From a virus: a stretch of 20,053 nt of DNA. Positions 175 to 20,053 of the stretch are shown here, piece after piece. Under the pieces are notes generated by a model. It did not search any database. It was not told the origin of the DNA and saw only the letters and a program-made list of their open reading frames with translations. The position numbers were made by a program, and so were the translations under genes. Positions within the stretch are counted from its first letter, which is position 1; every line of letters starts with the position of its first letter. The stretch lies in the IMG/VR virus record IMGVR_UViG_3300044911_003050, positions 1-20,053 of that record; one strand, written 5' to 3'.

Positions 175-177
175 GCC

Positions 178-1470: not shown

Positions 1471-1505
1471 TCACCCCTGACCCTGAAAAGCCTGCCACGG
1501 GGCGG

Positions 1506-3494: not shown

Positions 3495-3518
3495 GGTGGC
3501 TCTTTGACTTGTGGACGC

Positions 3519-7095: not shown

Positions 7096-7337
7096 CAGTT
7101 GTCGTAGCAGGCACGACGGATCGTGCGTTCGTAATGCTTCCAGCCGTAACCCGGAACGTAAGCGCGGACTCGTCCGACAGAATCCTTGCCAACTAGGCTA
7201 ATCTGGATGCTGATGTCGTCAAAGTGGTAACTTAACGCCGTGCAATCCTTCGGCATATTCTCAATCATGTTAACGAGTTTATTATCGGCCCATGCCTCAA
7301 AGCCCAGGCGGTCGATTTGTTCTTTGTCAGGTTTCAT
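7095..7337 (-). CDS. Hypothetical 80-aa protein next to the dNMP kinase
   Basis: No family is recognised. It begins MKPDKEQIDRLGFEAWADNK and contains two apparent beta strands (DDISIQISLVGK, GRVRAYVPGYGWKHYE), ending RACYDN. It is coupled to the dNMP kinase stop by a 4-nt ATGA overlap and to the coiled-coil gene by a one-base overlap, so it is almost certainly translated. Confidence 0.6.
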   Translation of the reverse strand: MKPDKEQIDRLGFEAWADNKLVNMIENMPKDCTALSYHFDDISIQISLVGKDSVGRVRAYVPGYGWKHYERTIRRACYDN

Positions 7338-7924: not shown

Positions 7925-8981
7925 GTTTCAAAATGTATTCGTGGCTATAGCAGGTACGATTGGCGTGAAGCAGCATATGCTTACCTTCTTTTCTAGAATC
8001 CGTTATCTGGGCAATGCTATAATCTTTACGGCTCATCTTATTCTTAGACGTGGCCTTCCAGTTTTCGGATTTTTGTCGATACTCACCCATGCGCGGGTGT
8101 GCTGTCTTTGAAAAGAACCGGCAACCGTTGGAAACATAATGTCGAGCTACGGCATCAGAAAGCCTGACTCCAATTCCAAGCCCCTGATAGTCTGGAAGAA
8201 CGACGGTTCTATGACCCCTGAATGCGTTCTTGAAGTTGCCATTCGGGAAAGCAAGCACAGCACAAAACCCGACAATTGAATCCCCCCAGTAGGCTGCGTA
8301 GCATTGTGCGGCTTTGTTCATTTCTCCGGTCAGATAATGATGCTGCCTAAAGATTGACCAGACGCTTCGTTCGCAGCGTCGAACATCAAGTTCAACTGGT
8401 TCGCGCTTACGAAAAAAGCCCTGTTGGATCACCTGACCTTTCTGAACGTCGAAAACCCAATCAGGCTGAAGCCATTCTATGATATCGTAATGACAGGACG
8501 AAAAAACGACTCCCTTAATGCCGGCATTTCTAATATGACGTTGAATCGCATGGGAACAACTTTTGGCCACATTTCGGTCGACCACGGAGGTGAATTCGTC
8601 GAAAGACGTGTCGTTATCCAATATTGCTGCCATGTTGGCCCGGAAGGCTTCGCCGTTAGAAAGGACATGGAAAGGCCGACACCACGCTGGTACGCTATTA
8701 AGCCCTACGGCCATGAGTTTGTTAAAGTCAACCTGCGACGCAATGGCCTTGGAGCCATCCCAGACGAAAGGCTTGCTAATCCCGTAATTCTCCGAGAGCA
8801 GCGTGGTTTTGCCAGACCCAGACGGACCAACAATTAGACCAATCCCCCATGATCCGTCGCGCTTTGGGGCGTCGAACTCCGGTACATCAAAGGTGCTTGT
8901 TCCGTCGAAAGCATAGTCAAAAGGCTGGCAGGCAGCCAAAAGTGCTTCATCAATTTCAACTTTAATGCTTTTAGTTGCCAT
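7914..8981 (-). CDS. ABC-type ATPase fused to a GNAT acyltransferase (COG2401-like, Mom-related?)
   Basis: The first ~190 residues of this 355-aa protein are an ABC-class ATPase: Walker A GPSGSGKTT (52-60), signature-like HVLSNGEAFRANMA (105-118), a Walker B/D-loop region SFDEFTSVVDR (126-136, with D128 E129) and an H-loop SSCHYDI (H164). Residues ~200-355 are a GNAT domain with a FRQHHYL element (211-217), a YWGDSIVGFCAVL strand pair and the acyl-CoA loop VVLPDYQGLGIG (260-271). The order matches COG2401 (ABC ATPase fused to a predicted acetyltransferase). Phage Mu Mom, which modifies adenine, is also a GNAT protein. There are no membrane segments, so it is not a transporter. The DNA is clearly more AT-rich than its neighbours. 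The start overlaps the helicase stop by 11 nt. Confidence 0.85.
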   Translation of the reverse strand: MATKSIKVEIDEALLAACQPFDYAFDGTSTFDVPEFDAPKRDGSWGIGLIVGPSGSGKTTLLSENYGISKPFVWDGSKAIASQVDFNKLMAVGLNSVPAWCRPFHVLSNGEAFRANMAAILDNDTSFDEFTSVVDRNVAKSCSHAIQRHIRNAGIKGVVFSSCHYDIIEWLQPDWVFDVQKGQVIQQGFFRKREPVELDVRRCERSVWSIFRQHHYLTGEMNKAAQCYAAYWGDSIVGFCAVLAFPNGNFKNAFRGHRTVVLPDYQGLGIGVRLSDAVARHYVSNGCRFFSKTAHPRMGEYRQKSENWKATSKNKMSRKDYSIAQITDSRKEGKHMLLHANRTCYSHEYILKHDA

Positions 8982-10458
8982 AGTTATCGAAGATTCGTCC
9001 GTAGATTTTTTGCAGGGGGGACTGGCGGTTCGGCCCCTTTTGCATCCGCCAGTCGGAAGCGATGGCCTTCGACGCCGAGTCCTTGCTCAGACGCTCGGCA
9101 CCGCGCACCCCGAACTGCTGGAGTTTACGCACCTGCTTCACGGTGGCCAGATTAAGGGCTTCCCGTGCCTTCAGACGGGCAATCATCCAGTCGGCCTGAT
9201 CAGCGGTCATGCCACGGGCGTAAACGCCGTAGCGTGCCAGCTCGGTGGACTGGTAATGGAACATGGAAGAGTCCGACGTCGCCGCCGGCAGGACGAAGCC
9301 GAAGACGGCACAAGCGACGGACAGGTCGACCAGCCCCAGTTCCTTGGCTTCCTTAGTGGCCGACCGCTGCTCTTCGGCGGCGATACGGCGGAGCATGGCT
9401 TCCTCCGCCTGGCGGTCGCAACCCTGCGCGGCTTCCAGCGGGTCATGCGAACCCTGAATCTGGGCGGACTTGGCCTGCGGGTGAACCGTGAAGGCGTCCG
9501 CCGGCGTGAAGGAATTCTCGCCGCTGATCCACATAGGGTCGAGGATGAGGCAATCGGTCTTGCCCGGAGCCGTGCGGAGGCCACGCCCGATCATCTGGCA
9601 CCAGAGGGCGCGGGACTGGGTCGGACGCAGCAGGATGACGCAATCGGTCTCGGGGGCGTCGAAGCCCTCGGTGAACAGGTTGACGTTGCAGAGGACACGC
9701 AGGTCGCCGCTCTTAAAGGCTTCGACGGTGCCGGCACGGAACTTGCCCGTGCTGCCGTCGGCGTGGCCGGCTTCGATGCCGCGCTGGCGAAGGTGGGCGA
9801 CCAAGCGGAGGGAGGAATCCACGTCCGGCAGGAAGGCGATTGCCTTCTTACGGTCCCAGCGGTTCAGCTCGGTCACTATGCTGTCGGCCACGGCTTCAAG
9901 GGCGTCCTCATAACCGCGCAGGCGGATGAGGCTCATCTCGACGGGCATCTTCTGGGCCATCGGGCGGACGAGGTGACCCTGCTCGATAAGGGTGCGGATA
10001 GCAATTTCGTAGGCGGTCTCAAAGCCCACGGTCTCCAGACGCTGGCGGTCGAGACGGTCAGGCGTGGCGGTCACGGCGACCTTCGGGCCGGTGAACACGG
10101 AGTTGAACTTGGCCCAAGAAGAGGCGACGGCATGGTGGGCTTCGTCGAAGACAACCAGCGCGGTGGCCTTATCTTCGGCGGAGATATGGTCGAAGTCAGC
10201 GGAGAAGACGGAGAGGGCTTCGCCGACCACGCCGGCACGGATCATCGTCGCAGCCGCCTGGTCAATCAGTTCCTTGCGGTGGGCCACGAAGAAACACTTG
10301 CGGTTCGTGCCGGCCTGCCAGCGGTGCATGATGCTGGAGGCGATGACGGTCTTGCCGGCACCCGTCGGAGCGATCACCAGCGGGTTGACGCCCTTGGCTA
10401 GGTGCGACAGCGCGGCGGTGACGGCGGCTTCCTGATAGTCTCGAAGTTTCAGTTCCAT
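8971..10458 (-). CDS. Superfamily 2 DEAH-type DNA helicase
   Basis: From the ATG at 10458 the protein is 495 aa. It shows the Q-like start LRDYQEAAV (5-13), motif I APTGAGKTVIA (30-40), motif Ia VAHRKELI, motif II VVFDEAHH (102-109), motif III TATP (130-133), and in the second RecA lobe the FTEGFDAPETDCVILLRPT and IGRGLRTAPGKTDCLILD motifs V/VI. This is the SSL2/RadD-like type frequent in phages, an ATP-driven remodeller of branched or damaged DNA or of replication forks. The C-terminal ~150 residues are unassigned and may recruit partners. A longer in-frame start at 10533 lies inside the upstream gene; the chosen ATG is 1 nt after that gene's stop. Confidence 0.92.
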   Translation of the reverse strand: MELKLRDYQEAAVTAALSHLAKGVNPLVIAPTGAGKTVIASSIMHRWQAGTNRKCFFVAHRKELIDQAAATMIRAGVVGEALSVFSADFDHISAEDKATALVVFDEAHHAVASSWAKFNSVFTGPKVAVTATPDRLDRQRLETVGFETAYEIAIRTLIEQGHLVRPMAQKMPVEMSLIRLRGYEDALEAVADSIVTELNRWDRKKAIAFLPDVDSSLRLVAHLRQRGIEAGHADGSTGKFRAGTVEAFKSGDLRVLCNVNLFTEGFDAPETDCVILLRPTQSRALWCQMIGRGLRTAPGKTDCLILDPMWISGENSFTPADAFTVHPQAKSAQIQGSHDPLEAAQGCDRQAEEAMLRRIAAEEQRSATKEAKELGLVDLSVACAVFGFVLPAATSDSSMFHYQSTELARYGVYARGMTADQADWMIARLKAREALNLATVKQVRKLQQFGVRGAERLSKDSASKAIASDWRMQKGPNRQSPLQKIYGRIFDNYGN

Positions 10459-10459
10459 G

Positions 10460-10789
10460 TTAGGCGGCGACGACGGTGCGGTACTTGTTGGCGTCGAGGA
10501 TCGTATACTGCGGACGCTTGCCGCCACGGACAAGGACGATATGCTCGCAGGTCGGGTCGAGCTGAACGCAACCGCGCAGTTCGGAAGCGGAGATACGCTT
10601 GTCGAACCAATAACGGGTCGGCTCGCCGCCGTGGCAGCGGATGACCATGCCGGCGTCGTGCGGCCATTTGCAGGTCCAGATGGAGTAAGCCCATTCGTTG
10701 GAGAATTCGGGCGACCACAACTTGATTGTGATGCACTCCTTGTATTCGGCGAGGGCGAGGGCGAGTTCCTGTTTTTTGGTGATCTTCAT
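10460..10789 (-). CDS. Hypothetical 109-aa protein, first gene after an internal terminator
   Basis: No family is recognised. The product starts MKITKKQELALALAEYKECI and is rich in Trp and Cys (KLWSPEFSNEWAYSIWTCKW, RCHGGEPTRYWF), then ends with basic beta-rich sequence (IVLVRGGKRPQYTIL). The ATG at 10789 is chosen over an upstream frame extension that reaches into the terminator. An AT-rich ATTATATACCC directly precedes it. Because an intrinsic terminator lies just upstream, this gene and the helicase group should have their own promoter in the ~58-nt gap. Confidence 0.6.
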   Translation of the reverse strand: MKITKKQELALALAEYKECITIKLWSPEFSNEWAYSIWTCKWPHDAGMVIRCHGGEPTRYWFDKRISASELRGCVQLDPTCEHIVLVRGGKRPQYTILDANKYRTVVAA

Positions 10790-10847
10790 GGGTATATAAT
10801 CGGGTGGCGTTCTTTGTTGTGTGCATCGGCGTCGGCAACACAAGCAC

Positions 10848-10873
10848 AAAAAAGGAGGAACTTTCGTTCCCCC
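10848..10873 (-). terminator. Intrinsic terminator after the ssDNA-binding protein gene
   Basis: On the minus strand GGGGGAAC pairs with GTTCCTCC (one G-U) around a GAAA tetraloop, an 8-bp stem followed at once by six T. It lies 24 nt past the stop of the 149-aa gene. It should end, or attenuate, transcription of the recombination group before the helicase group. Confidence 0.85.
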
Positions 10874-10896
10874 TTCGGTACCGGCTTTACCCCCCT

Positions 10897-11346
10897 TTAG
10901 AAGGGGTTCTGGGCGGGGCCACCGGGCAGGCGGGTGAAGAAGGACGCCTGGTAGGCCACCCCCTCCGAACCGTCCTTCTTGGTGTACTTACGCTCGGTCA
11001 CGCGCACCTTGAGCGTCCGACCCTTGGCACGGGCCAGAATCTTCTCAAGGAAGGTCTCGTCGACCTCCAGCTCGCCGCCGGCGACGTACTCCTTGACCTC
11101 CTCGTCCGTGGCCGAAGCAGCAAGGAACTGCTCCAGGCGTTCGTGACCGCCGTTCTTGTCCGGCTTGGCGAACAGGTCGCCGAAGACGGTTTCGCCTTCG
11201 TTAGTCACGAAGGTGATGCGGGCGTACAGGTCGGCGCGGGGCGGGAGGTAGTCCTGCTTCGCACCCTGCACGGTCGCCGTGTAGGTGCCGGCCTTGGAGA
11301 CGTACTTGCGATCCTCGGCGGCGTTGGGGTTGAACTTGAATGCCAT
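10897..11346 (-). CDS. Putative ssDNA-binding protein of the recombination module
   Basis: The 149-aa protein looks like a single OB-type domain of strands (GTYTATVQGAKQDYLPPRAD, YARITFVTNEG, RTLKVRVTERKYTKKDG, AYQASFFTRL), with an acidic middle part (SATDEEVKEYVAGGELEVDE). It ends GGPAQNPF; a terminal Phe after a flexible tail is a usual feature of ssDNA-binding proteins, which use it to recruit partners. Position between the nuclease/annealase genes and the helicase supports this, and the layout resembles DUF669-type phage proteins. The OB fold is inferred, not proven. The leader is CCATAACCCAATACCATAAC-ATG, with no Shine-Dalgarno. Confidence 0.6.
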   Translation of the reverse strand: MAFKFNPNAAEDRKYVSKAGTYTATVQGAKQDYLPPRADLYARITFVTNEGETVFGDLFAKPDKNGGHERLEQFLAASATDEEVKEYVAGGELEVDETFLEKILARAKGRTLKVRVTERKYTKKDGSEGVAYQASFFTRLPGGPAQNPF

Positions 11347-11385
11347 GTTATGGTATTGGGTTATGGGTTGTGGTTTGGGGGAGAG

Positions 11386-11646
11386 TTATTCAACCTCGGG
11401 AATCAGGTGGACGGTGGAACCCTTCTTGTCGACGACGACCAAGTTGTCGAACTGATTACGGGCAACGTCCTTGAGCATACCGAAGATTTCGTCGGGCGTC
11501 TCGGACACCCACCAGCTCGTTCCGTGCTGCTCGCAGATGACCGTCGCATTGTGTGCGTCGTTACGAGCGAACGAGCTGATGCATTCAGGATTGATGAACA
11601 CCGGGTTTTTGTCGGCGTCGTATTTGTGGACTTTGATGTATAGCAT
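11386..11646 (-). CDS. FlbD-like small protein
   Basis: The 86-aa protein begins MLYIKVHKYDADKNPVFINP, continues ECISSFARNDAHNATVICEQ and has SWWVSETPDEIFGMLKDV. The pattern of an N-terminal strand, 'INPxxI', a strand after a variable acidic stretch, 'V.E.p.Ei...' and a helix matches the small FlbD-like beta-alpha fold first named from flagellar operons and also found in phages. Function is unknown in phages. The ATG at 11646 follows TTTCCACCACC and lies 11 nt after the nuclease stop. Confidence 0.5.
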   Translation of the reverse strand: MLYIKVHKYDADKNPVFINPECISSFARNDAHNATVICEQHGTSWWVSETPDEIFGMLKDVARNQFDNLVVVDKKGSTVHLIPEVE

Positions 11647-11657
11647 GGTGGTGGAAA

Positions 11658-12446
11658 TTACTGCACCCACTTCGGGAGGGCGAGCGTCTGGACTTCCTGC
11701 GGATAGCCCGGGTACTGCCGGAACTTGTTGCAGGAGGCGAAGAGGTCAATGGCGGAGTTCATCAGGGCGAGACCCTTCTGGTGCGCGGCCTCGTCGAGCG
11801 TATACGTCGCCCAGCAATTCGGGAAGTCCTTCTCGACGGCGAGGAAGACGAACTGGTCCGCATGGGCCAGCGTCATATACCACGCACTTTGCAAGAAATA
11901 CATATAGTTGGCAATATCACGACCGAACGAATTCGCGCCGGCGTCCATCGTGGTTTTGATGTCTACCACGATACGCTTGCCGCTCTTCGTCGTGATGATG
12001 GCGTCGAGCCTGCCTTTGATGTCCGTGCCGTTGACACGTCCGACCATCGGGACTTCGGTGATCATCGACTCGCCGTCGAAGTCCTTCATCAGTTTGTCAA
12101 GGCCGGCACGGGCGGCGATGGACACATTGGTGACCAGCTCGCCGTCCTTCTGGCTGATGGCTTCTTGGCCAGGCTGAAGGGTGGATTGGAATGCGGCCCA
12201 GATTTCTTTTCCCTCCTTGGTGCGCTTGTCGCAGTCCGGGGCGACGACCACGGTGGCGTCGAAGACCTTCGGCTGGAGCGAGGCGAGGTGGATCAGGGAG
12301 CCGAGCCGCTGGGCAGGCGTCTGCTCCGTACGGTCACGGTCGAGGTAGGCGAGGTAGTGCGCGGGAGACCGCAGCAGTTCCTTGGCTCCGCTTTGGCTCA
12401 GGCCGGGATGGTTGTTATACTCTTCGTCGGGGATTTGTTTGCTCAT
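11658..12446 (-). CDS. RecB-type PD-(D/E)XK exonuclease (DUF3799/RecE-like)
   Basis: From the ATG at 12446 the protein is 262 aa. It shows the N-terminal NNHPGLSQSGAKELLRSP element of phage RecE/DUF3799 nucleases, then GSLIHLASL (H53), ITEVPM (E131), GRLDAI (D148), VVDIKTT (D162, K164) and the RecB-family motif QSAWY (Q186-Y190). All catalytic positions of a PD-(D/E)XK metal nuclease are present. It would degrade duplex ends to make the single strands on which the RecT-like protein acts; the two genes are separated only by two tiny genes. The longer frame to 12488 reads Pro-rich sequence and is not used. Confidence 0.85.
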   Translation of the reverse strand: MSKQIPDEEYNNHPGLSQSGAKELLRSPAHYLAYLDRDRTEQTPAQRLGSLIHLASLQPKVFDATVVVAPDCDKRTKEGKEIWAAFQSTLQPGQEAISQKDGELVTNVSIAARAGLDKLMKDFDGESMITEVPMVGRVNGTDIKGRLDAIITTKSGKRIVVDIKTTMDAGANSFGRDIANYMYFLQSAWYMTLAHADQFVFLAVEKDFPNCWATYTLDEAAHQKGLALMNSAIDLFASCNKFRQYPGYPQEVQTLALPKWVQ

Positions 12447-12451
12447 GGGAA

Positions 12452-12538
12452 TTATCGGTTGCGGTTGGAATCGATGAGGAGGAGGCACACGAACGTCAGG
12501 AAGATGTTCAGGCAGATGAGGAGTTTGGTTTCGTCCAT
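12452..12538 (-). CDS. 28-aa single-pass membrane peptide
   Basis: A very short frame starts one base after the preceding stop (TGA-a-ATG) and ends 5 nt before the nuclease start, so it fills an otherwise unexplained gap. It has a charged start (MDETK), a 17-residue hydrophobic core (LLICLNIFLTFVCLLLI) and a polar/basic end (DSNRNR). That is a single transmembrane helix, inside an otherwise soluble recombination module. Confidence 0.5.
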   Translation of the reverse strand: MDETKLLICLNIFLTFVCLLLIDSNRNR

Positions 12539-12539
12539 T

Positions 12540-12782
12540 TCAGTTTTTGGTGAGGGTTCCGAAATTGGCCAGCGCGGCCGGGATGGCGTAACTGCGAAGG
12601 TAGGTGATTTCCTTCATCAGTTCGACGTTCTTCTCGCGCAGGTCGTTCAGCTCAAGGCGTACCTCGAAACAGTTCTGGCTCATCTGGTGGACGATCTGGG
12701 TCAACGCCTTCACCTGCTCTTCCGGCGAGCGGTCGGGCAGGGGCTTGAATTCGTGGATGATTTCTTCGGGGGTGTGGCTCAT
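12540..12782 (-). CDS. 80-aa helical, coiled-coil-like protein
   Basis: The product is mostly helical: PEEIIHEFKPLPDRSPEEQV, KALTQIVHQMSQNC, and a heptad-like stretch FEVRLELNDLREKNVELMKE. No family is recognised. The ATG at 12782 overlaps the RecT stop (ATGA) and supersedes an upstream frame extension within the RecT gene. Between RecT and the nuclease, it may be a small accessory of the recombination pair. Confidence 0.6.
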   Translation of the reverse strand: MSHTPEEIIHEFKPLPDRSPEEQVKALTQIVHQMSQNCFEVRLELNDLREKNVELMKEITYLRSYAIPAALANFGTLTKN

Positions 12783-13537
12783 AGGGAAAGATGCGAGTCG
12801 ACGGCGGAAAGGAACGGGCCAGGCTTCTTGCAAAGGGTGTCGGCCAAGTCCTGCGAGATGTCTGCCCATCCCTGCTCGGGAGTCAAGTGGCCGACCTGCC
12901 GCAGCACTTCGACGGCGGCGTCCCGCTTGGCTTCAGGGACGAGTTCGTCGAGCGTGAGGGTATTCTGTCGGGCGACGGGGCGGGAGGGCGTGGCGTCGAG
13001 TTCTTCGACGGTGTAGGTGCCGAAGCAGCACTCCGGGGCGATGAGGCGGACGCCTTCGCTGATTGCACGGGCGGTCAACATCCGGCGCGGCCACTTCTTC
13101 CAGTTGTCCTTGAGCTTGCCGTCCTTGCCCAGCGCGGTGCCGTTGCCGACGTACTCCTTCATGTCGGCTACGATGTCGGCGGACGACGACCCCTTGCGGA
13201 AGGTGGCCTTCACCTTCTCGTCGGATCGCTCCGTCCAGACGACGGTGCCGCCGGCCTGCTGGAACTTGGCCAGCAAGGCGTCGGAGCGGATGGCGAGCTG
13301 CCCTTGGATGAAGTGGTACGTCCGCGCCAGTTCCAGCGGGGACTTCTTTTCGACCATGCATTGCATGGCCAGAATCTCGCCCTGTTCGGGCTTATCCAGG
13401 CCGAAGATGCCGGACTTGAAGATGGCCAAGCCGAGGGTCTTGATCGCCTGCATCGGGTCGGAGATGCGGTCGTAGACGCCGGCGGCGGCAAGGTCGTGCG
13501 ACTGGGGCGTCACGGGGACGAGTTCGTTGTTTTCCAT
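12779..13537 (-). CDS. RecT-like ssDNA annealing protein
   Basis: The 252-aa protein has the layout of phage RecT-family annealases: an N-terminal helical part (AIKTLGLAIFKSGIFGLDKP), a region that uses existing catalytic-like text (EQGEILAMQCMVEKKSPLEL), then RSDALLAKFQQAGGTVVWTE and the RecT-typical KKWPRRMLTARAISEGVRLI. The last is the 'W.kRMLtaRA.S.g.R' helix of the family, followed by APECCFGTYTVEEL. It would pair complementary single strands made by the nearby nuclease. The ATG at 13537 lies 1 nt after the previous stop; a longer start at 13567 is inside that gene. Confidence 0.8.
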   Translation of the reverse strand: MENNELVPVTPQSHDLAAAGVYDRISDPMQAIKTLGLAIFKSGIFGLDKPEQGEILAMQCMVEKKSPLELARTYHFIQGQLAIRSDALLAKFQQAGGTVVWTERSDEKVKATFRKGSSSADIVADMKEYVGNGTALGKDGKLKDNWKKWPRRMLTARAISEGVRLIAPECCFGTYTVEELDATPSRPVARQNTLTLDELVPEAKRDAAVEVLRQVGHLTPEQGWADISQDLADTLCKKPGPFLSAVDSHLSL

Positions 13538-13538
13538 G

Positions 13539-13817
13539 TTATTTTTCTTCGACGATAAAGGTTCCATTGATGGCTACGAACTTCTCGTTTTTGTCGATGA
13601 AGTCGATGCCGGTGCCGTCAGCCCTGTAGGTGCTGTTGATATCCCAAGAGCGGATCGCTTTGCCGTTGGCGTCGAACAGGGTAACCTTGCGCTCCAGTCC
13701 GCTGACCCTTGAGGTAATGCCCTTGAGCGTCTGCCTGGTGCTATTCATTCGTGCCCATAGGACTACGCAGGCGACGGCACAGACGATTCCAATGATGATG
13801 AAGGTTCTGTCTTTCAT
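13539..13817 (-). CDS. Membrane-anchored 92-aa protein
   Basis: Residues 4-21 (RTFIIIGIVCAVACVVLW) form an N-terminal signal anchor, then a short helix (TRQTLKGITSRVSGLERKV) leads to a soluble beta-rich domain with FDANGKAIRSWDI and KFVAINGTFIVEEK. The domain would be periplasmic if the anchor goes N-in. No family is recognised. It lies between the RecT gene and a small gene, each 1 nt away, so is cotranscribed with the recombination module although it looks like an envelope protein. Confidence 0.6.
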   Translation of the reverse strand: MKDRTFIIIGIVCAVACVVLWARMNSTRQTLKGITSRVSGLERKVTLFDANGKAIRSWDINSTYRADGTGIDFIDKNEKFVAINGTFIVEEK

Positions 13818-13818
13818 A

Positions 13819-14028
13819 TCAGGCGACGGCCTTGGCGGCGGCGAGGAGTTTGCGGCTGGACACCCGGCGGAGGACGCCGTCGAGCATCATGTTGTAGGAC
13901 ACCTTCGTGTTGACGACGTAGGGCTTGAGCCGACGCGCCACGGTGCCGTCCGAAAGGACGACGTACTCGGTGTCAGGGATGGAAGCCAGCAGGCGAGCCG
14001 GCGGGGTCTTGATGAGTTTCGTGATCAT
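13819..14028 (-). CDS. 69-aa protein, resembles the N-terminal part of phage HNH proteins
   Basis: From the ATG at 14028 the product reads IPDTEYVVLSDGTVARRLKP, then VSYNMMLDGVLRRVSSRKLL. A 'Y.vs..G.v.r.LkP' strand pair followed by a 'G..rr.s...L...a' strand-helix resembles the NUMOD4-like N-terminal module of many phage HNH endonucleases, but no HNH domain follows. It may be a reduced DNA-binding derivative. The ATG follows CTTCTCCTCCC, a pyrimidine tract, not a Shine-Dalgarno. Confidence 0.45.
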   Translation of the reverse strand: MITKLIKTPPARLLASIPDTEYVVLSDGTVARRLKPYVVNTKVSYNMMLDGVLRRVSSRKLLAAAKAVA

Positions 14029-14039
14029 GGGAGGAGAAG

Positions 14040-14474
14040 TCAGAGGTTGAATTGCTGCGCGTGGGAGAGCAAGCAAAAAGCGTCAGCAGTTTTGAGCGTG
14101 ATTTTTTCCACGCTGGGGAAGCGACGCTGGGCCTCCCGCTTCAGGACGTTCTTCCATTCCGTCGTGCTATGCCCGCCGCCCTTCTTCGTGCCGACGCCCA
14201 TCGTCTTCTGCCACTCCTGCGGGGTCACCAGCACGACCTTGAATCCGCGCCCCTGCCACAGGCCGACAATCCAGCCGTAGGAGTAGCCCAGTTTGAACGA
14301 CGCCGATGCCGGGATAGGGCCGACGAACGCCGGCACCTTCTCGATGACCACCGTCGTGTTGATCGGCGGACACAGTTCGACCAGGCCGTCGTTGTCGCCC
14401 CAAGTAATCTGGGAGCCTTCGTCCAGCACCCAGCCGCCGGACGCCCCCGGGTCGATGCAGAGGTAGGACTTCAT
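14040..14474 (-). CDS. RuvC-like Holliday junction resolvase
   Basis: The 144-aa protein begins with the RNase H-fold strand YLCIDPGASGGW (catalytic D8), has a second acidic residue in TTVVIEKV (E45) and a third near the end in LKTADAFCL (D131). This D-E-D spacing, plus VLVTPQEWQKTMGVGTKKGG in the middle, matches small phage RuvC-like resolvases. The fourth acidic residue of canonical RuvC is not obvious. It would cut four-way junctions left by phage recombination before packaging. The ATG overlaps the DUF551-like gene stop (ATGA). Confidence 0.8.
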   Translation of the reverse strand: MKSYLCIDPGASGGWVLDEGSQITWGDNDGLVELCPPINTTVVIEKVPAFVGPIPASASFKLGYSYGWIVGLWQGRGFKVVLVTPQEWQKTMGVGTKKGGGHSTTEWKNVLKREAQRRFPSVEKITLKTADAFCLLSHAQQFNL

Positions 14475-14662
14475 GGTAGTTCAGGAAAAGGAATCCAGTA
14501 TTCAGGGTTATATTCTTGATCGGTATATTTCATGCAGTCATGGCCTTCAACCTCGTACTTGGATTCGATACGACGAATCATAAAGATTTCCCCCACCTTC
14601 GGGTCGAGGGCAATAACCCAGACTCCTTCGGGTGCGGTGCTGATAGGTTTCCAGCCGCTCAT
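14471..14662 (-). CDS. DUF551-like small protein
   Basis: The 63-aa protein starts SGWKPISTAPEGVWVIALDP and ends PEYWIPFPELP. The 'W.pi.tAP..g..V' opening and the 'W.PlPe.P' close are the signature of the small DUF551-type phage proteins, whose function is unknown. It is coupled by ATGA overlaps on both sides. Confidence 0.7.
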   Translation of the reverse strand: MSGWKPISTAPEGVWVIALDPKVGEIFMIRRIESKYEVEGHDCMKYTDQEYNPEYWIPFPELP

Positions 14663-15132
14663 TTGGTCAGCTCCCGGTAGATGTTGCCCACCCGCTCCGC
14701 AGCATCGGCCTTCGCCTTCGGCGCGGTGACCAGCGAGTGGCCTACCGCCTTCGCCCCGCTGAAGCCCATGCTGAAAGCCAGATAAATCTGCTCAGGCGAA
14801 GGCTTCAGGATGCCGTCGTCGACGAGCCGCTCCCGGCACCACGTCACATAGGCCACGGCAATCGCCCGCTGGTTCTCAGGCACCCGCCACTCCTTCCGGC
14901 TGATCTTCGGCAGGCCGTGCTTCTCACGCCATTGGTTGGCCGTAATCCAGGCGGCGACATGGACCTGCCAAGCCCCGACCGCTTTCGTGCCGTCGCCGAC
15001 GGCGGCGTAGTTCATGCCGCTCTCGACCGCGCCGATGGCGTTCGTCAGGATGAGCAGTTCGGCCTTCTCCCGGGCTTCCGCAGGCATGGCCGCAAGCGTC
15101 GCAGCCAGCGTCATCAATAATGGATTCGTCAT
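14659..15132 (-). CDS. Lytic transglycosylase/lysozyme-like protein with signal peptide
   Basis: The 157-aa protein has a hydrophobic N-terminus (MTNPLLMTLAATLAAMPAEA) that could be a signal peptide cleaved after AEA. The SLT-like core follows: AIGAVESGMNYAAVGDGTKA and GAWQVHVAAW, with E37 as the likely catalytic Glu in 'aVESg...aVGDg..a.GawQ'. The rest is shorter than a full transglycosylase domain. It would cut peptidoglycan, as an endolysin or a virion/injection enzyme. It is the first gene of the long minus-strand block, far from the lysis cassette, so early expression is implied. Its leader GGTACCCCTAGGGGG-ATG holds a small palindrome. Confidence 0.65.
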   Translation of the reverse strand: MTNPLLMTLAATLAAMPAEAREKAELLILTNAIGAVESGMNYAAVGDGTKAVGAWQVHVAAWITANQWREKHGLPKISRKEWRVPENQRAIAVAYVTWCRERLVDDGILKPSPEQIYLAFSMGFSGAKAVGHSLVTAPKAKADAAERVGNIYRELTK

Positions 15133-15275
15133 CCCCCTAGGGGTACCGCCCGAAAAAACAAAGGCAATGAAATATTTATACCTCGAGGGGGGGAAATCCT
15201 TCCGAAAAATAAAAGGGGTCGCAATATTTCAGGGGGTCGGCGTTTTCGGATCATGCGCGTCGGCCATGCGTAGCC

Positions 15276-15388
15276 GGCGTTATTAACGCCAATCGACTTC
15301 CGCTTTAATTGGCCAATCTGTTATTAACGCCAATCAGCCTGGCGGTTCGACGGGTCGATGGCGCGGAGATTATGGCGTATTAATCGCC
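15276..15388. repeat. Repeated GTTATTAACGCCAATC and GGCG...CGCC palindromes
   Basis: GTTATTAACGCCAATC occurs at 15279-15294 and again at 15320-15335, 41 bp apart (about four helical turns). The first lies in the perfect palindrome GGCGTTATTAACGCC (15276-15290). A related GGCGTATTAATCGCC is at 15374-15388, and the palindrome ATTGGCCAAT is at 15308-15317. Spacing and symmetry suggest protein-binding sites (operators or origin iterons). Confidence 0.6.
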
Positions 15389-15526
15389 GCAAAAGTGCGT
15401 AGGAAAACCCCAGAAAAATCCGGGGTAACGCCCCTGAAAATGAATTTTTTATGGGGAAAACGAAAAAAATCGGTTTTTGGCGAGGGTCAGTATGAGTTCC
15501 GCCTGGCGACCCCCCATGAATCGCCA

Positions 15527-15557
15527 GTTCACTAGTGAACAAGCGTTCACCTGAACG
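15527..15557. promoter_or_regulatory. Tandem GTTCA/TGAAC inverted repeats (probable operators)
   Basis: GTTCACTAGTGAAC (15527-15540) is a perfect 14-bp palindrome. CGTTCACCTGAACG (15544-15557) has 6-bp arms around CC. Their centres are 17 bp apart and both contain GTTCA and TGAAC half-sites, as for a dimeric repressor binding two adjacent sites. Confidence 0.55.
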
Positions 15558-15573
15558 AAACATGACATCCTTA

Positions 15574-15592
15574 CTAATGATTAAATCATTAG
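15574..15592. promoter_or_regulatory. 19-bp AT-rich perfect palindrome
   Basis: CTAATGATTAAATCATTAG has 9-bp arms around a single central base. With no G/C-rich stem and no T-tract it is a poor terminator and a better candidate for a dimer-binding operator. It lies 17 nt from the GTTCA/TGAAC pair. Confidence 0.5.
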
Positions 15593-15654
15593 CTCGCCGC
15601 CCATGTTTCGGGGTAATGTTAGGTTACTTACCTTTGATTTGTAAACCTCCATTC

Positions 15655-15955
15655 TTCCGCCGGCGGACGGCGGGGCGGCGGCACGGGGTCACCGGCGGCG
15701 GACGGTTGCCGCCCTTCCGGGGCGGCGCGGGGCCGGCGGCAGGCCGGCGGCAAGGGTTTGACCAGGCCGGCGGCAGGCCGGCAGGCGGGGCAAGGGAAGC
15801 CGGCGGCCAGGCACGGCCGGACGGCGGGAAGGGGTAGGGCGGCAGCCGGGCGGCACGGGGCCGCGATCGCGTAAGCTTTTGCCGGCCAGGCGGCCAGGCG
15901 GCGGAGGAAAGGGGAAGGGGAAGCCGGCAGGCAAACCGGCGGCACCGGGCCGGCC
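15655..15955. repeat. GC-rich CCGGC/GGCGGC low-complexity non-coding block
   Basis: This ~300-nt stretch is built of imperfect GGCCGGCGGC and GCCGGC units (for example around 15730-15790 and 15935-15950). Frames across it give only Pro/Arg/Ala-rich products with no protein character, so I treat it as non-coding. It contains one GCGATCGC (15863-15870). A second block of the same style lies at the other side of the gene cluster. Confidence 0.65.
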
Positions 15956-15956
15956 T

Positions 15957-15972
15957 GGTTTATGCGCTTAAC
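15957..15972. repeat. GGTTTATGCGCTTAAC repeat, copy 1
   Basis: An exact 16-mer shared with 19606-19621; the first 15 bases also occur at 17952-17966, where they cover the last codons and stop (minus strand Leu-Ser-Ala-stop) of the 133-aa gene. At this copy there is no gene, so it may be a displaced fragment of a gene end or a functional DNA site. Confidence 0.6.
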
Positions 15973-16006
15973 AAATGCCGGCCTGACAAACGGGGCAGCA
16001 TTAGGG

Positions 16007-16036
16007 AAAAGAAAAGCCCCGGGGCTGCCGGGGCTT
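16007..16036 (-). terminator. Intrinsic terminator of the right-hand gene cluster
   Basis: AAGCCCCGG (16014-16022) pairs with CCGGGGCTT (16028-16036) around a 5-nt loop, a strong GC-rich 9-bp stem. On the minus strand it is followed by TTCTTTTCCC. It lies 24 nt downstream of the last gene of the cluster (stop at 16061). Confidence 0.8.
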
Positions 16037-16060
16037 GTAAGGGAGGGAGTTTGCCGGGCT

Positions 16061-16585
16061 TTATTCACCGGCGGCGGCCTGGAACCGGCCTAGCTTGTCA
16101 AAGAATAAGGCAAGCCGGGGCAATAGCTCCGGCTTAATCCGTTTGAATTCCGCCGTAGCAATCCATCCAAGCTCCGGCGTACCGTACCAGGTTACTTGCC
16201 ACTTGCGGCAGGCTGCCGCGATCGCGGCGGCGTGATCACTAGGCAAGGCCCAGGCATGGCCGCCGCCGTAACCGTAAGCTGTTGCCTTAATCAGCCGGTG
16301 CGCTGCGGCGGCAAGCTGCGGCCGGTGGGATGTTAACGGGATTAAGCCGGCGTTTACCCCTTCGCCGAAAAACTTAAATTGAGCGGCAACGGGATACCAG
16401 GAAAACCAGCCGGAAACCGTCCGCCGTTTGCCGGCAACGGTCAATTGAACCGCCGCCCGGAAAACGTCACCATAAAAAACGTCCCGGCCGGTTATAACCG
16501 CCGTCCGTATTACGCGATCGCGGCAAACAACCGGCAGCCGGCGGCCTGGGGCCATGCCGGCGGATAAGGGGAAAGGTTTACGCAT
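16061..16585 (-). CDS. Hypothetical 174-aa protein, last gene of the right cluster
   Basis: No family is recognised. The N-terminal part may be beta-rich (RVIRTAVITGRDVFYGDVFR, VQLTVAGKRRTVSGWFSWYP). The middle is helical with Ala and aromatic residues (LAAAAHRLIKATAYGYGGGH), and the end is FKRIKPELLPRLALFF. Its codons are dominated by GCC/GCG/CCG, as elsewhere in this block. Two GCGATCGC octamers fall inside it in different reading frames (one reads A-I-A, one R-D-R). It starts 8 nt before the end of the preceding gene. Confidence 0.6.
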   Translation of the reverse strand: MRKPFPLSAGMAPGRRLPVVCRDRVIRTAVITGRDVFYGDVFRAAVQLTVAGKRRTVSGWFSWYPVAAQFKFFGEGVNAGLIPLTSHRPQLAAAAHRLIKATAYGYGGGHAWALPSDHAAAIAAACRKWQVTWYGTPELGWIATAEFKRIKPELLPRLALFFDKLGRFQAAAGE

Positions 16586-16907
16586 GGAGGGAGGGAGTTT
16601 TAAAAGGGACGGCGGCGGCGTTTAAACCCTTGGCAATGTCATAAAGCTCCGCCGCCTGGTCTTCCGGCAATCCGCCCCGGCGGACGGCGGCAAACCAATT
16701 AAAGGCACGGGCCGCCCGGCCTAGGCAAAGGGCCATGCGCTTACGCCGGACGGGGCAAGCCGGTTTAATGCGGAGGGATTTAAGGGCGGGATTGGCCGCC
16801 CACAAAGCAGGGCAGCAATCCTCAATAAAGAAGGGCGGCGGATTAATCGACACAAGCCCCGCCCGATTAAGGGCGGCGGCGGCGGCGTGTATAGGTTCGT
16901 TTTCCAT
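16578..16907 (-). CDS. Hypothetical 109-aa Ala-rich protein
   Basis: From the ATG at 16907, 1 nt after the previous stop, the protein reads MENEPIHAAAAALNRAGLVS, then a Cys/Pro-containing segment (FFIEDCCPALWAANPALKSL, ACPVRRKRMALCLGRAARAF) and a helical end (EDQAAELYDIAKGLNAAAVP). Four Cys are present (CC, ACP, LCL) but not in a clear metal-binding pattern. No family is recognised. Confidence 0.6.
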   Translation of the reverse strand: MENEPIHAAAAALNRAGLVSINPPPFFIEDCCPALWAANPALKSLRIKPACPVRRKRMALCLGRAARAFNWFAAVRRGGLPEDQAAELYDIAKGLNAAAVPFKTPSLHA

Positions 16908-16908
16908 G

Positions 16909-17070
16909 TCAGGCGGAAGGGGTTTCAACGGTAACGTCTAAGGTTTCAAACTCCCCTTCCGAAAATGCCGTTTGAAGGGCCATGTCCGCCGCTTGGCTTT
17001 CGTTTGCCGCTTCTACTTCAACAGTAACTAGGTAACGGACGTAAACGATATAGTTTTGTTTTTTGGGCAT
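16909..17070 (-). CDS. 53-aa small beta-alpha protein
   Basis: From the ATG at 17070 the product is MPKKQNYIVYVRYLVTVEVE followed by AANESQAADMALQTAFSEGE. The plan of a strand pair with alternating hydrophobics, an 'A.s..eA...A' helix and a last strand (FETLDVTVE) is that of tiny ferredoxin-like phage/bacterial proteins of unknown function. The ATG lies 4 nt after the Gp88-like stop; the longer upstream frame runs through that gene. Confidence 0.6.
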   Translation of the reverse strand: MPKKQNYIVYVRYLVTVEVEAANESQAADMALQTAFSEGEFETLDVTVETPSA

Positions 17071-17074
17071 AGGG

Positions 17075-17935
17075 TTAAGCGGCAACGGTTGCGCGGATGA
17101 CAAAGCCGGATTTGTCGGCCTTTGCTTTGCCTTTAGCTTTGAGAATTCCAATCCGGCCTTTGCCGTCCGTTGCCTTGCGATCTAGAAACCGCAAATCATG
17201 CCGATCGGCGGAAAAGGTGGGGCGTGCTTCCGGCAAACCAGGCAAGGCAAACCGTTGCCCCACCTTTACCCCGTCCGCAACGGCGGCAACGTTAACGCCG
17301 GCGGCCAAGGCGATCCCGGCGGCGGCGGCGTTATTCTCCGCAAGGGAAAAGGTAAGGTGATAGCCCTTGGGCAATTCACCCTTGGCAAAGGCAATCGCTC
17401 GGCGGATTGACTTCGTATAATCGTAAAAACGGACGGACGGGAATTCGGCGAACAATTCCGGGGCTAACTTTTCCCAGGGCAAATCCGACGTGCCATTGAG
17501 ACGAACAACCGGCTTCAGGCTGCGCTTGCCGGCTTTCCTTACTAGGGCGGCGATTTCCCCTTTAAGGGCAGCAATAAAGCCGGCCCGGTTATCATGCAGG
17601 AACCTAGTCCTCATTACCCTTGCCGCATTTACCTCTTCAAAGATGCCGGCCCGGCCGGCCGTAAAGAGGCAGGCGGCCAGGCAGCCGGCGGACGCATGAG
17701 GGCAAAGGTTGCCAACGCCGGCAAGCTGCCCCGGGGCAAGATAAAGAATCCCGGTTAAATAACCGCTTGCCGTTCCCTTATCCGTTTTTGCGTCCGCTTC
17801 TACGGATAGCAAATAAGAGGGCATCTTAAATGCCGCGATCGCGGCCGGGTGGACAACCGGGGCGGCAGCGGCCAGGCCGGCATTTACTAGCAAAGCCGGA
17901 TTAACCGCCGGCACGGGATTGTTTATGGGTTTCAT
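17075..17935 (-). CDS. Phage Gp88-like protein with CX6CX3C motif
   Basis: The 286-aa protein contains a strongly patterned region I recognise from phage 'Gp88/gene product 88' proteins: GILYLAPGQLAGVGNLCPHA followed by SAGCLAACLFTAGRAG (C78, C85, C89), then AARVMRTRFLHDNRAGFIAA, VVRLNGTSDLPWEKLAPELF and the FPSVRFYDYTKSI motif. The three spaced Cys suggest an Fe-S or metal site. The nearby invariant 'R-L-N-G-T-S-D', 'Y-D-Y-T-K' motifs suggest an enzyme. The biochemical role of the family is not known to me. N-terminal ~35 residues are Ala/Pro-rich and probably disordered. It is the largest and only recognisable gene in the GCGATCGC-rich block. Confidence 0.78.
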   Translation of the reverse strand: MKPINNPVPAVNPALLVNAGLAAAAPVVHPAAIAAFKMPSYLLSVEADAKTDKGTASGYLTGILYLAPGQLAGVGNLCPHASAGCLAACLFTAGRAGIFEEVNAARVMRTRFLHDNRAGFIAALKGEIAALVRKAGKRSLKPVVRLNGTSDLPWEKLAPELFAEFPSVRFYDYTKSIRRAIAFAKGELPKGYHLTFSLAENNAAAAGIALAAGVNVAAVADGVKVGQRFALPGLPEARPTFSADRHDLRFLDRKATDGKGRIGILKAKGKAKADKSGFVIRATVAA

Positions 17936-17951
17936 GGGTTTTAGGGGAAAG

Positions 17952-17966
17952 GGTTTATGCGCTTAA
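17952..17966. repeat. GGTTTATGCGCTTAA repeat, copy 2
   Basis: Fifteen bases identical to the copies at 15957 and 19606; here it carries the stop of the 133-aa gene. This suggests the other two copies may be fragments of a similar gene end. Confidence 0.55.
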
Positions 17967-18356
17967 GGGATTATTAAGGGCGGCACGGGCGGCGGCGGCA
18001 TCGGCGGCCAGCTGTTCGGCGATCGCGGCGGCATCGGCGGCGTGTTCCGCAAGGTCGGCGGCCCGGGCGGCCGCTTCCTTTGCCAGCTTCTCCGCCCTTT
18101 CGGCGGCGGCCGTCAATTGTTCAATCCTCCATTGCTCTTCCCGCCGGGCGGCAACCCGGGCGGCAACCCGGGATTGTTCCCAGTCCGCATAATGCAAAAG
18201 GGCGGCCCGGAGCTGTTTAAATTCAAAATATCTGTCCGCATAAATGTCCGCCGCCTGGCCGGCATCGAACAGGTTTGATGAATCATGCGCTTCCTGAATT
18301 ACGGTGAAGGCCGCATCTATTGCCAATCCGACTAATTGCTCGTTGTTTTCTTTCAT
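17955..18356 (-). CDS. 133-aa Ala-rich helical protein
   Basis: The ATG at 18356 begins MKENNEQLVGLAIDAAFTVI; a globular helical N-terminal part (to ~60) is followed by a long Ala/Glu/Arg helix from ~65 on (AARREEQWRIEQLTAAAERA, EKLAKEAAARAADLAEHAAD). The latter is a low-complexity coiled-coil or extended single helix ending in LNNPLSA. The frame continues upstream to 18605 but reads Pro/Arg-rich shadow of the neighbouring gene. No function recognised. Confidence 0.6.
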   Translation of the reverse strand: MKENNEQLVGLAIDAAFTVIQEAHDSSNLFDAGQAADIYADRYFEFKQLRAALLHYADWEQSRVAARVAARREEQWRIEQLTAAAERAEKLAKEAAARAADLAEHAADAAAIAEQLAADAAAARAALNNPLSA

Positions 18357-18375
18357 GTTTTTTGGGGTTTGGAGA

Positions 18376-18735
18376 TTAAAGGACGGCGGCCAGGGGAATC
18401 CCGTCCGGCAGGTTTTCGGTTGCGGCCGCGATCGCGTCGCCGGCAAGGGCGGCCAGCTCCTCTTTAAGGGCCGGCAGCATAGGGAAACCGCCGGGAAGCA
18501 TGGCAACCCCTTCGGCACGTTGCCAAGCCCCGGAAGGATTGCCGGCCATGCGGCAAAGGTATTCAATCCTAACTTGGCCCCAGGCCTGGCCGGCTTCCCA
18601 ATCAATCAATATTGCCGCCTTGCCCCAATGCTTTCCAGGCGGGGCGGACGGTTCAAACCAGACCTTGCGGATTTCAAAGCCTTCGCCGCTGCGCTTAAAG
18701 AGAAGGGCGGCAATCGTATCTTGTTGTTTCTTCAT
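18376..18735 (-). CDS. Hypothetical 119-aa protein
   Basis: No family is recognised. It begins MKKQQDTIAALLFKRSGEGF, has aromatic-rich beta-type sequence (WEAGQAWGQVRIEYLCRM, WQRAEGVAMLPGGFP) and an Ala-rich C-terminal helix (ALKEELAALAGDAIAAATE) that spans one GCGATCGC. The ATG follows CCCTTTCCCCTAAC, the pyrimidine leader typical of this cluster. Confidence 0.6.
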   Translation of the reverse strand: MKKQQDTIAALLFKRSGEGFEIRKVWFEPSAPPGKHWGKAAILIDWEAGQAWGQVRIEYLCRMAGNPSGAWQRAEGVAMLPGGFPMLPALKEELAALAGDAIAAATENLPDGIPLAAVL

Positions 18736-18749
18736 GTTAGGGGAAAGGG

Positions 18750-19145
18750 TTAAGCGGTTTCTTCGTCATCTGGCCAGGGCTGCCGGGATTGTTCCTCATG
18801 CCGGGCCATGCGTTCGTCATCTTCGTCTTCCTGCTCATCTTCCCAGGCCTTCGCGATCGCGTCGGCAATCAAGGTCAGCCGGGCGGCATCTTCCCACCCT
18901 AGGGAATCACTAGGGAAAGCTTCCCTAAAGGCACGGGCGGCGGCGTTCAACATGGCCGGAGCGTGTTCCAGCTCTTTCCAGGTCAGGCAGCCGGCGACAT
19001 AATCCAAGTTATCAAGAATCCCGGCGACGTTAATGCCGGCAAGCTTCCGGGCGGGAACCTGGCAAGCGGTTGCCGCCAGTCCGTCGGCAATGGCGGCAAC
19101 GGTGGCAAGGTGGGATTGGATGAGCGGAGGAAGCGGGGTTTTCAT
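18750..19145 (-). CDS. 131-aa acidic-tailed helical protein
   Basis: From the ATG at 19145 the protein is helical (LATVAAIADGLAATACQVPA, NAAARAFREAFPSDSLGWED) and ends in a highly acidic tail (WEDEQEDEDDERMARHEEQS). An acidic low-complexity tail on a small helical phage protein is compatible with nucleic-acid mimicry or protein binding, but no family is recognised. The GCGATCGC at 18853-18860 lies within ADAIAKAWED. Confidence 0.6.
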   Translation of the reverse strand: MKTPLPPLIQSHLATVAAIADGLAATACQVPARKLAGINVAGILDNLDYVAGCLTWKELEHAPAMLNAAARAFREAFPSDSLGWEDAARLTLIADAIAKAWEDEQEDEDDERMARHEEQSRQPWPDDEETA

Positions 19146-19155
19146 GTTAGGGAAA

Positions 19156-19239
19156 TTAGATGGAGAAAACGGCAACGGTTATCAGCCAGGCAATGGCGAC
19201 AATGGCGGCGGCGGTTAACAGGTCTTTTAGGTTTTGCAT
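19156..19239 (-). CDS. 27-aa single-pass membrane peptide
   Basis: A short frame from ATG at 19239 fills the gap between two genes. It has a polar start (MQNLKD) and a hydrophobic helix (LLTAAAIVAIAWLITVAVFS). The leader CCCTTTCCCACCT matches other starts in the cluster. It recalls the 28-aa membrane peptide at 12452-12538 in size and design but not in sequence. Confidence 0.5.
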   Translation of the reverse strand: MQNLKDLLTAAAIVAIAWLITVAVFSI

Positions 19240-19266
19240 AGGTGGGAAAGGGAAAGCGGTTGCGGT

Positions 19267-19470
19267 TTACTTATTGGACTGATATTCGGCCCTAAAATTT
19301 AAAGGTAGAATGACGGGGTTTCCTCTATTCCATTCAATCATATGTTGAACAATTGAATTTGCTTCATCTTTAGTCCAAACGGACGCACCTGATACTTTGC
19401 CGGAAGCAAAGCCAAAGCCATCAACATAAAAAGCATTGTGAGACGAGGAATATATAATGTAGTTTTTCAT
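19267..19470 (-). CDS. 67-aa hypothetical protein, first gene of the right cluster
   Basis: From the ATG at 19470 the product reads MKNYIIYSSSHNAFYVDGFG, then FASGKVSGASVWTKDEANSI and a short C-terminal strand (NPVILPLNF). A strand-strand-'W..deA..iv..m' helix layout is found in many small phage proteins of unknown role. Unlike the rest of the cluster it is AT-rich with ordinary codon use. A promoter just upstream places the RNA start only ~3 nt before this ATG, which argues against the in-frame start at 19515. Confidence 0.65.
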   Translation of the reverse strand: MKNYIIYSSSHNAFYVDGFGFASGKVSGASVWTKDEANSIVQHMIEWNRGNPVILPLNFRAEYQSNK

Positions 19471-19472
19471 AT

Positions 19473-19509
19473 CGCCGTCTTTATAGGACGCATTTCCGGG
19501 GCACGTCAA
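19473..19509 (-). promoter_or_regulatory. Sigma70-like promoter of the right cluster, near-leaderless
   Basis: On the minus strand TTGACG (19509-19504) and TATAAA (19485-19480) are separated by 18 bp, each matching the consensus at five of six positions. The predicted start (~19473) is about 3 nt from the ATG at 19470, so the first gene would be translated from a leaderless or nearly leaderless mRNA. Confidence 0.65.
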
Positions 19510-19533
19510 TGTCATTCTGTCAGAAACTTTGAC

Positions 19534-19545
19534 CCTTTATAAAGG
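19534..19545. promoter_or_regulatory. Palindrome CCTTTATAAAGG upstream of the promoter
   Basis: A perfect 12-bp palindrome 25 bp upstream of the -35 element. It could bind a dimeric regulator of the right cluster; no other copy was noticed. Confidence 0.35.
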
Positions 19546-19547
19546 CA

Positions 19548-19774
19548 GGCACGTCCGGCGGCCCCAGGCGGATTAATGGCCGGTTACGCGATCGCCGCCG
19601 GCTTCGGTTTATGCGCTTAACTTATCCGGCACGTCCGGCGGCACGTCGGCCGGCGGCCTGGCCGGCGGCCCCAGGCACCGGCACCGGCACCGGCCTACAT
19701 GGGAAGCGGCACCGGCTGCGGCAGCTCCGGCACGTCGGCCGCCCCGCCCCGCCCGCCCGCCCGGCACGTCGGCC
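19548..19774. repeat. Five GGCACGTC(C)GGC repeats in a GC-rich block
   Basis: GGCACGTCCGGCGG occurs at 19548-19561 and 19628-19641; the variant GGCACGTCGGCC at 19640-19651, 19729-19740 and 19763-19774. Between them lie three CACCGG units in tandem (about 19676-19693) and other CCGGC-type sequence. No protein-like frame spans the block. Confidence 0.65.
19606..19621. repeat. GGTTTATGCGCTTAAC repeat, copy 3
   Basis: Exact match to 15957-15972, so the two GC-rich blocks that flank the gene cluster each carry one copy. Confidence 0.6.
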
Positions 19775-20053
19775 GCCTGGTCAGCTGCTACATGGCCGCG
19801 ATCGCGTCGGCAACGGGCCAATTGGCCAGGCCGGCAGGCCCGGAAGCCCGGCAACGGCCGGCAGCGGCGGCCGATTGGACAGCGGCGGCGGCGGGGTATG
19901 TTCAATGTCGTTTGAACCATTGAAAGATGAGTAAGGATTACGGGATTGGCCAATCATGACCTTTTTAATCATGTATTGCTGACTCATGTATAGACTCCCC
20001 ACTAAGGAATCTATTCCACCCTCCGCCAGCGGGGGGGGCGAAGCCCACCCGAC
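19775..20053. other. Right-edge region without a recognised gene
   Basis: No gene is seen. The palindrome GATTGGCCAATC (19944-19955) repeats the ATTGGCCAAT of the control region at 15308, and GGAAT-CT-ATTCC (about 20009-20020) is a second small inverted repeat. After about 19915 the sequence loses the extreme GC-rich style of the preceding block. Confidence 0.4.

Follow-up and report, generated by a model that had tools for sequence, protein, structure and literature searches.

Why should one octamer, GCGATCGC, crowd into the last 4 kb of a viral DNA and be missing from all that precedes it? The DNA in question is a 20,053-base IMG/VR record (IMGVR_UViG_3300044911_003050), referred to here as the window, and the octamer is that of HIP1, the highly iterated palindrome (HIP) of cyanobacteria. 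A sequence-only reading of the window had reported the octamers together with a compositional switch, and had offered three sources: a HIP1-bearing donor, a site read by a methyltransferase or another protein, or an assembly chimera. We consider it probable, though well short of certain, that positions 15654-19966 are instead one allele of an exchangeable operon cassette with the vocabulary of its lineage, in which a process confined to the cassette favours certain words and GCGATCGC is a local member of the set; this estimate covers the whole statement except the guess of biased repair that is discussed below. The octamer is thus a local case of a general feature, not a sign of cyanobacterial origin.

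The positions were recounted, and nine GCGATCGC sites were found within 15863-19805 and none in positions 1-15862, in agreement with the earlier reading:

15863..15870, GCGATCGC, non-coding
16218..16225, GCGATCGC, A-I-A frame
16514..16521, GCGATCGC, R-D-R frame; the sole site seen to be common to the window and its relative G008
17835..17842, GCGATCGC, A-I-A in the GP88 gene; relatives lack the site at the aligned position
18019..18026, GCGATCGC, A-I-A frame
18428..18435, GCGATCGC, A-I-A frame
18853..18860, GCGATCGC, A-I-A frame; two relatives have the near-match CGATTG
19588..19595, GCGATCGC, non-coding
19798..19805, GCGATCGC, non-coding

Five sites are therefore in the A-I-A frame, one is in R-D-R and three are non-coding, and the extended form CGCGATCGCG occurs at seven of the nine, both as previously described. 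The density in the block is 9 per 4.26 kb (~2100 per Mb, or ~1 per 475 bases). Comparison with shuffled sequence, which the same reading had proposed as a check, put the count well beyond chance: whole-window dinucleotide shuffles gave a mean of 1.0 and a maximum of 3 octamers, and Markov models of order 1, 2 and 3 predicted 0.17, 0.04 and 0.25 in the block. An order-4 model of the block expects 4.2, a model of that order having learned the octamer's own pentamers. Synonymous-codon shuffles yielded a mean of 0.42 coding octamers against the six observed, a number reached in 0 of 1000 shuffles. CGATCG accounts for 10 of the 13 GATC in the block and for 0 of 37 in core windows of the same contig. 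The claim that the bias acts on DNA and not through codon use is borne out by the non-coding sites, the two frames, the failure of the synonymous shuffles and the amino-acid-changing substitutions that make sites (see below). The compositional switch was also confirmed, as both of its measures jump: GGCGGC plus CGGCGG number 23-41 per kb from 15 kb onward and 0-12 earlier, and the tetranucleotide distance of the block is 0.45-0.61 against a median of 0.26.

Relatives were gathered with the window's primase-like protein (1506-3494), its GP88 protein (17075-17935) and the protein at 14659-15132. A search for relatives carrying both blocks, another of the proposed checks, found them in many metagenomes, in unchanged order and at the same junction; one of them, G002 (IMGVR_UViG_3300042868_009113), aligns without a break over 14659-16086, spanning the junction. 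The main comparison phage for the cassette ends, G024 (L143, IMGVR_UViG_3300033978_000581), is 97.6% identical to the window in a single alignment over 8966-15653, which stops at 15653; the match resumes at 19967, with 93% identity over 19967-20053. Between these points G024 holds DNA of similar length that is mostly unalignable and encodes a GP88 protein 64% identical to the window's. Because so close a relative has different DNA there, between near-identical flanks as in an exchangeable phage module, 15654-19966 is taken to be an exchangeable cassette, and it appears from these alignments to have been exchanged among near-identical phages. The right end of the block falls inside the window, between 19915 and 19966. 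The locus is laid out as follows:

15140..15653, lower-GC intergenic left flank with palindromes, such as GTTCACTAGTGAAC and CTAATGATTAAATCATTAG, seen in the sequence and in the alignment of relatives
15654..19966, exchangeable cassette that has an oligonucleotide vocabulary of its own, delimited by the ends of the G024 alignment; the window's only strong tetranucleotide outlier
19967..20053, conserved right flank (93% in G024; 73-81% matches in dialect-A relatives)

The left flank is probably regulatory for the genes on its left. One relative (G005, 3300042377_000343) appears to be a complete genome of ~36.8 kb, since one gene is found at either end of its contig. The phages of this clade have genomes of ~37 kb, and in them the cassette occupies a fixed site adjoining replication genes.

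When 15 records were compared with a sliding tetranucleotide measure, the strongest outlier in each was ~4 kb long and lay at the syntenic place; the G017 contig has only its edge, and no value in the window exceeds the automatic outlier threshold, since the block makes up so much of that record. The favoured words differ between lineages: GGCGGC, GCCGGC and CGGCAA in the window and most close relatives; GTCGAC, GACGTC and CGGCCG in G024; CCACCA and AGGCCA in G025 and G020; GCCGAAGC in G028; CGGCCG and CGGGCA in G027, G030 and G019; and an AT-rich set in G029. Word information, measured as H0-H3, the gain from the three preceding bases in bits per base, was 0.161-0.248 in cassettes, 0.055-0.113 in cores and 0.041-0.105 in unrelated GP88-bearing phages. 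Repeated 8- and 10-mers were more numerous than an order-3 Markov model fitted to the cassette predicts, at all distances and most strongly below 100 bases. In the window, non-coding DNA has about double the word density of coding DNA. Codon use is strongly biased in core genes (TTC 66, TTT 4) and not in the GP88 gene (TTT 11, TTC 3), and the alanines of GP88 track the local words (56 in the window, 31 in G024). These results show a low-entropy vocabulary peculiar to each cassette lineage, one that spans non-coding as well as coding sequence and affects the composition of the proteins.

A whole-record search of 22 relatives found no GCGATCGC in 20, one in G019 and eight in G008 (L125, 3300044846_003501), all eight inside its cassette; in a second set of relatives G025 has three and G030 two. 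The octamer is thus enriched only in the cassettes of the window and G008, which are not sisters by GP88. In the GP88 tree G008 is sister to the octamer-free G010 (support 98/98), and the octamer label has to change twice, a pattern that fits two gains as well as several losses. In octamer-free cassettes GATC frequently stands within GTGATC or GATCAC. At position 2200 of G008, GCGATCGCC stands where six relatives have GGGATTGCC, a change of glycine to alanine, and the alignments indicate that at least some octamers arose by point substitution, including amino-acid-changing substitution. Deviations of one base from the octamer are found in G008 at positions 1/8 (four), 2/7 (four) and elsewhere (two), and in the window twice in all. 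At 3870-3925 of G008 two near-copies of a unit around GCGATCGCGATCCCGT lie 30 bases apart, and local duplication would have given rise to some of the octamers there. Two mutational routes were rejected. Deamination would account for the C/T differences between GCGATCGC and GTGATCAC, which fall at the methylated position of m5CGATCG (m5C, 5-methylcytosine); one alignment position agrees with it (GCGATCAC against GTGATCAC at G008 3473), whereas the majority of aligned sites disagree. Hypermutation was dismissed since differences between the single near-identical pair, L157 and L158 (99.66% identical), are no more frequent in the cassette than elsewhere; a second pair, G028/L159, was set aside as a single record paired with itself.

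Some of these genomes also lack whole palindromes. ACGT, AGCT, CCGG, CGCG and GCGC are almost entirely missing from both core and cassette of G025 (L169/L170, IMGVR_UViG_3300007606_000015); genome-wide losses were likewise seen of ACGT and AGCT in G020 and of AGCT in G028, and in G029 of CATG and CTAG, with GTAC very rare. The pattern suggests restriction avoidance of an extreme kind, with different targets in related phages. In all four genomes the palindrome profile of the cassette fits its own core best among all cores, implying long residence there.

How might such a vocabulary be kept up? Under the preferred explanation, an exchangeable cassette with its own vocabulary, the process may be word-biased repair, templated conversion or selection on DNA, and in the lineages of the window and G008 the favoured GATC form would be GCGATCGC, relatives often having GTGATC/GATCAC. 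Word-biased, recombination-linked repair acting over long times is our leading guess, unproven and tentative. Templated repair among the many short repeats, aided by the phage's RecT/exonuclease pair, would explain the confinement and the excess of local repeats; the exchange and the private codes would follow if the DNA were selected as a recognised allele. Biased repair or conversion is ranked first and a word-reading protein second, with low confidence in either. It is possible, though we would not lean on it, that the DNA of this locus, its proteins aside, is held to an allele-specific word code by such a process or reader and that the alleles are swapped, for example as an identity or exclusion tag. 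Several points weigh against the preferred explanation. The process is hypothetical, and the lack of excess differences between L157 and L158 means that any bias is slow or inactive there. For the window itself the palindrome comparison (r = 0.00 between the cassette and its own core) carries no weight as to residence, the window's core not being purged. The bootstrap values of the GP88 tree are unsettled. The evidence for exchange comes mainly from one pair, the window and G024, and assumes that both are correctly assembled; a misjoin of two strains within this clade may be an alternative.

The best-surviving rival, which we rate as unlikely but worth keeping in view, holds that some protein recognises the words, GCGATCGC included (it might be a DNA-binding protein of the phage, a modification enzyme or part of an exclusion system), that a lineage-specific reader co-evolved with them and that the cassette works both as DNA and through its gene products. 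Exchanged alleles with private words, a double gain of the octamer at amino-acid cost and the fact that cyanobacterial HIP sequences accompany cognate methyltransferases (PMC4390886) speak for it, while the vocabulary is broad and not a single motif, and no gene common only to the window and G008 was found among the parts compared. The window's C5 methyltransferase (3790-4953) is 97% identical in the octamer-free G009, and no counterpart was detected in the 20 kb of G008. This enzyme does not track the octamer and was rejected as its cause, so that the proposal of a methyltransferase target gained no support from it. Among relatives, the ends of the same enzyme are conserved and its middle part is strongly divergent or gapped, the pattern expected of swapped target-recognition regions.

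Less likely still is import, that is, a recent arrival from another phage or a host genome (a HIP1-bearing one in the case of the octamer) whose signature has not yet faded. The cassette is indeed exchanged, does not match the palindrome profile of the window's own core and differs from that core in the context of GATC, as given above. However, its word information lies beyond that of 55 unrelated-phage windows and of the cassettes' own cores, not within the range of an ordinary donor, the yardsticks being phage DNA and one plasmid; the plasmid, the HIP1-bearing cyanobacterial pSYSA, has normal information content outside its clustered regularly interspaced short palindromic repeats (CRISPR) array. 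In each of the four purged genomes the cassette has undergone the same purge as its core, which indicates that vocabularies last in resident cassettes, and the sister position of the G008 gene to that of G010 places gain or loss of the octamer within the clade. The cassette genes belong to the phage family and the closest relatives are octamer-free. The earlier suggestion that the block was acquired is right in the sense of an apparent exchange among near-identical phages, as seen with G024, and is not supported as to a HIP1-bearing source.

Restriction avoidance, in which the cassette would enter the cell first and be purged of sites until a narrow vocabulary was left, is very improbable: whole 4-bp palindromes are missing from some cassettes, but the cores of the same genomes lack them too, so a cassette-specific purge was rejected; the cassettes of the window and most close relatives miss few or no palindromes and yet have a narrow vocabulary; and avoidance cannot create GCGATCGC. 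A chimera assembled from two unrelated phages has, apart from the sharp change of composition, equally little to recommend it, since contigs from many metagenomes carry both blocks in one order and G002 crosses the junction unbroken.

The cassette contains ~8 small genes on a single strand and a hairpin at the operon end:

16014..16036, minus strand, terminator-like hairpin that closes the cassette operon (putative function, by match to a consensus)
16061..16585, minus strand, 174-amino-acid protein; homologues 33-54% identical in most relatives
16578..16907, minus strand, predicted small protein of 109 amino acids, no family (open reading frame)
16909..17070, minus strand, predicted small protein of 53 amino acids (open reading frame)
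17075..17935, minus strand, GP88 family protein (PF17338, E = 2.6e-40; phrog_1617, E = 5.6e-58)
17955..18356, minus strand, predicted Ala-rich protein of 133 amino acids (open reading frame)
18376..18735, minus strand, predicted protein of 119 amino acids (open reading frame)
18750..19145, minus strand, 131-amino-acid protein, start MKTPLPP read from the sequence; 47-70% identical in relatives
19267..19515, minus strand, predicted protein of 82 amino acids (open reading frame)

The hairpin recurs in relatives with altered stem bases. The 174-amino-acid protein had no Pfam, PHROGs or NCBIfam match, the 82-amino-acid protein had no relative within the compared set, and an Rfam search gave no match. 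GP88 scored 139.1 bits against the curated PF17338 cut-off of 24.4 and is 64-88% identical in the cassettes of relatives. Its cysteines C78, C85 and C89 (CX6CX3C) are invariant in 23 relatives; its predicted structure (predicted local distance difference test score, pLDDT, 83.6) gave no significant fold match, NifB being among the insignificant ones, and an iron-sulphur enzyme is conceivable. A Shine-Dalgarno-like sequence is mostly missing from cassette genes (window 16061-18735; L143 1861-4926; L158 1089-5032), and lineage-specific C-rich spacers, such as AACCCATG or CCACCATG, stand just before their starts. To the left of the 15140-15653 gap lie a protein with a weak transglycosylase match (14659-15132), then a Holliday-junction resolvase-like protein and, further left, RecT-like and exonuclease VIII-like proteins and a helicase. 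A GNAT-domain protein at 7914-8981 was found in none of the 22 relatives compared, which points to an insertion private to the window's phage.

The only host hint is a contig of a Verrucomicrobiota metagenome-assembled genome (L124, JAURFH010000281.1), possibly a binned phage fragment, which encodes a primase-like protein 72% identical to the window's. That assembly has 180 octamers in 4.5 Mb, against 22 of a control word, and is not HIP1-rich. An oligonucleotide signature is usually taken as a whole-genome property that marks a host or donor. Here one short locus has a signature of its own, stronger than any ordinary phage signature measured in this analysis, and two phages with 97.6% identity in the adjoining DNA differ in it, so composition in such regions is a poor guide to host or foreign origin. 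The cassettes offer a small, comparable system for studying how words like HIP1 come to be over-represented, which the HIP1 literature has yet to settle.

Among known systems, HIP1 is the obvious comparison. The HIP class comprises octamers over-represented at ~1000-2000 per Mb across the whole genome, accompanied by a methyltransferase for CGATCG or GATC and with one-base deviations that fall mostly on the first and last base (PMC4390886), and in Synechocystis HIP1 occurs once per 1131 bases (PMC6604393). The cassette shares with HIP1 the octamer itself, a comparable density, sites in coding and non-coding DNA and spread by substitution. Unlike HIP1, its octamers reach such a density (~2100 per Mb) only within one 4-kb locus, the rest of the contig being free of them, as is G008 outside its cassette; because the genome-wide distribution is lacking, they are not classed as HIP1. 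They are also part of an anomaly of the whole vocabulary, whereas pSYSA DNA with HIP1 has normal word information, and as far as can be told the window is not in a cyanobacterium and any cognate methyltransferase is only putative. The nearest published mechanism is Elhai's model, in which methylation-linked mismatch repair ratchets sites towards the palindrome (PMC4390886); by analogy it could account for the octamer, whereas the vocabulary as a whole and the confinement to 4 kb lie outside its reach. Alternative HIP sequences (GGGATCCC, TCGATCGA and TGATCA; PMC4390886) resemble the cassettes in that related lineages swap one GATC-centred palindrome for another, here GCGATCGC in two cassettes and GTGATC/GATCAC in others, but they are genome-wide in cyanobacteria and locus-bound here. 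Genomic islands of atypical composition also depart locally from the tetranucleotide signature of their genome; the cassette signature, however, is not that of ordinary DNA, and in the four genomes that share their core's purge there is no fresh import. A limited search of the open-access literature found no description of such cassettes. There is a likeness, too, to mosaic phage modules, with which the cassette shares an allelic segment, sharp ends, near-identical flanks and a small operon of mostly unknown genes. Ordinary phage modules generally carry an ordinary signature, whereas every cassette allele has an extreme low-entropy vocabulary that covers non-coding DNA as well; as an exchangeable locus, the cassette counts as a module of a mosaic phage genome that is unusual at the DNA level.

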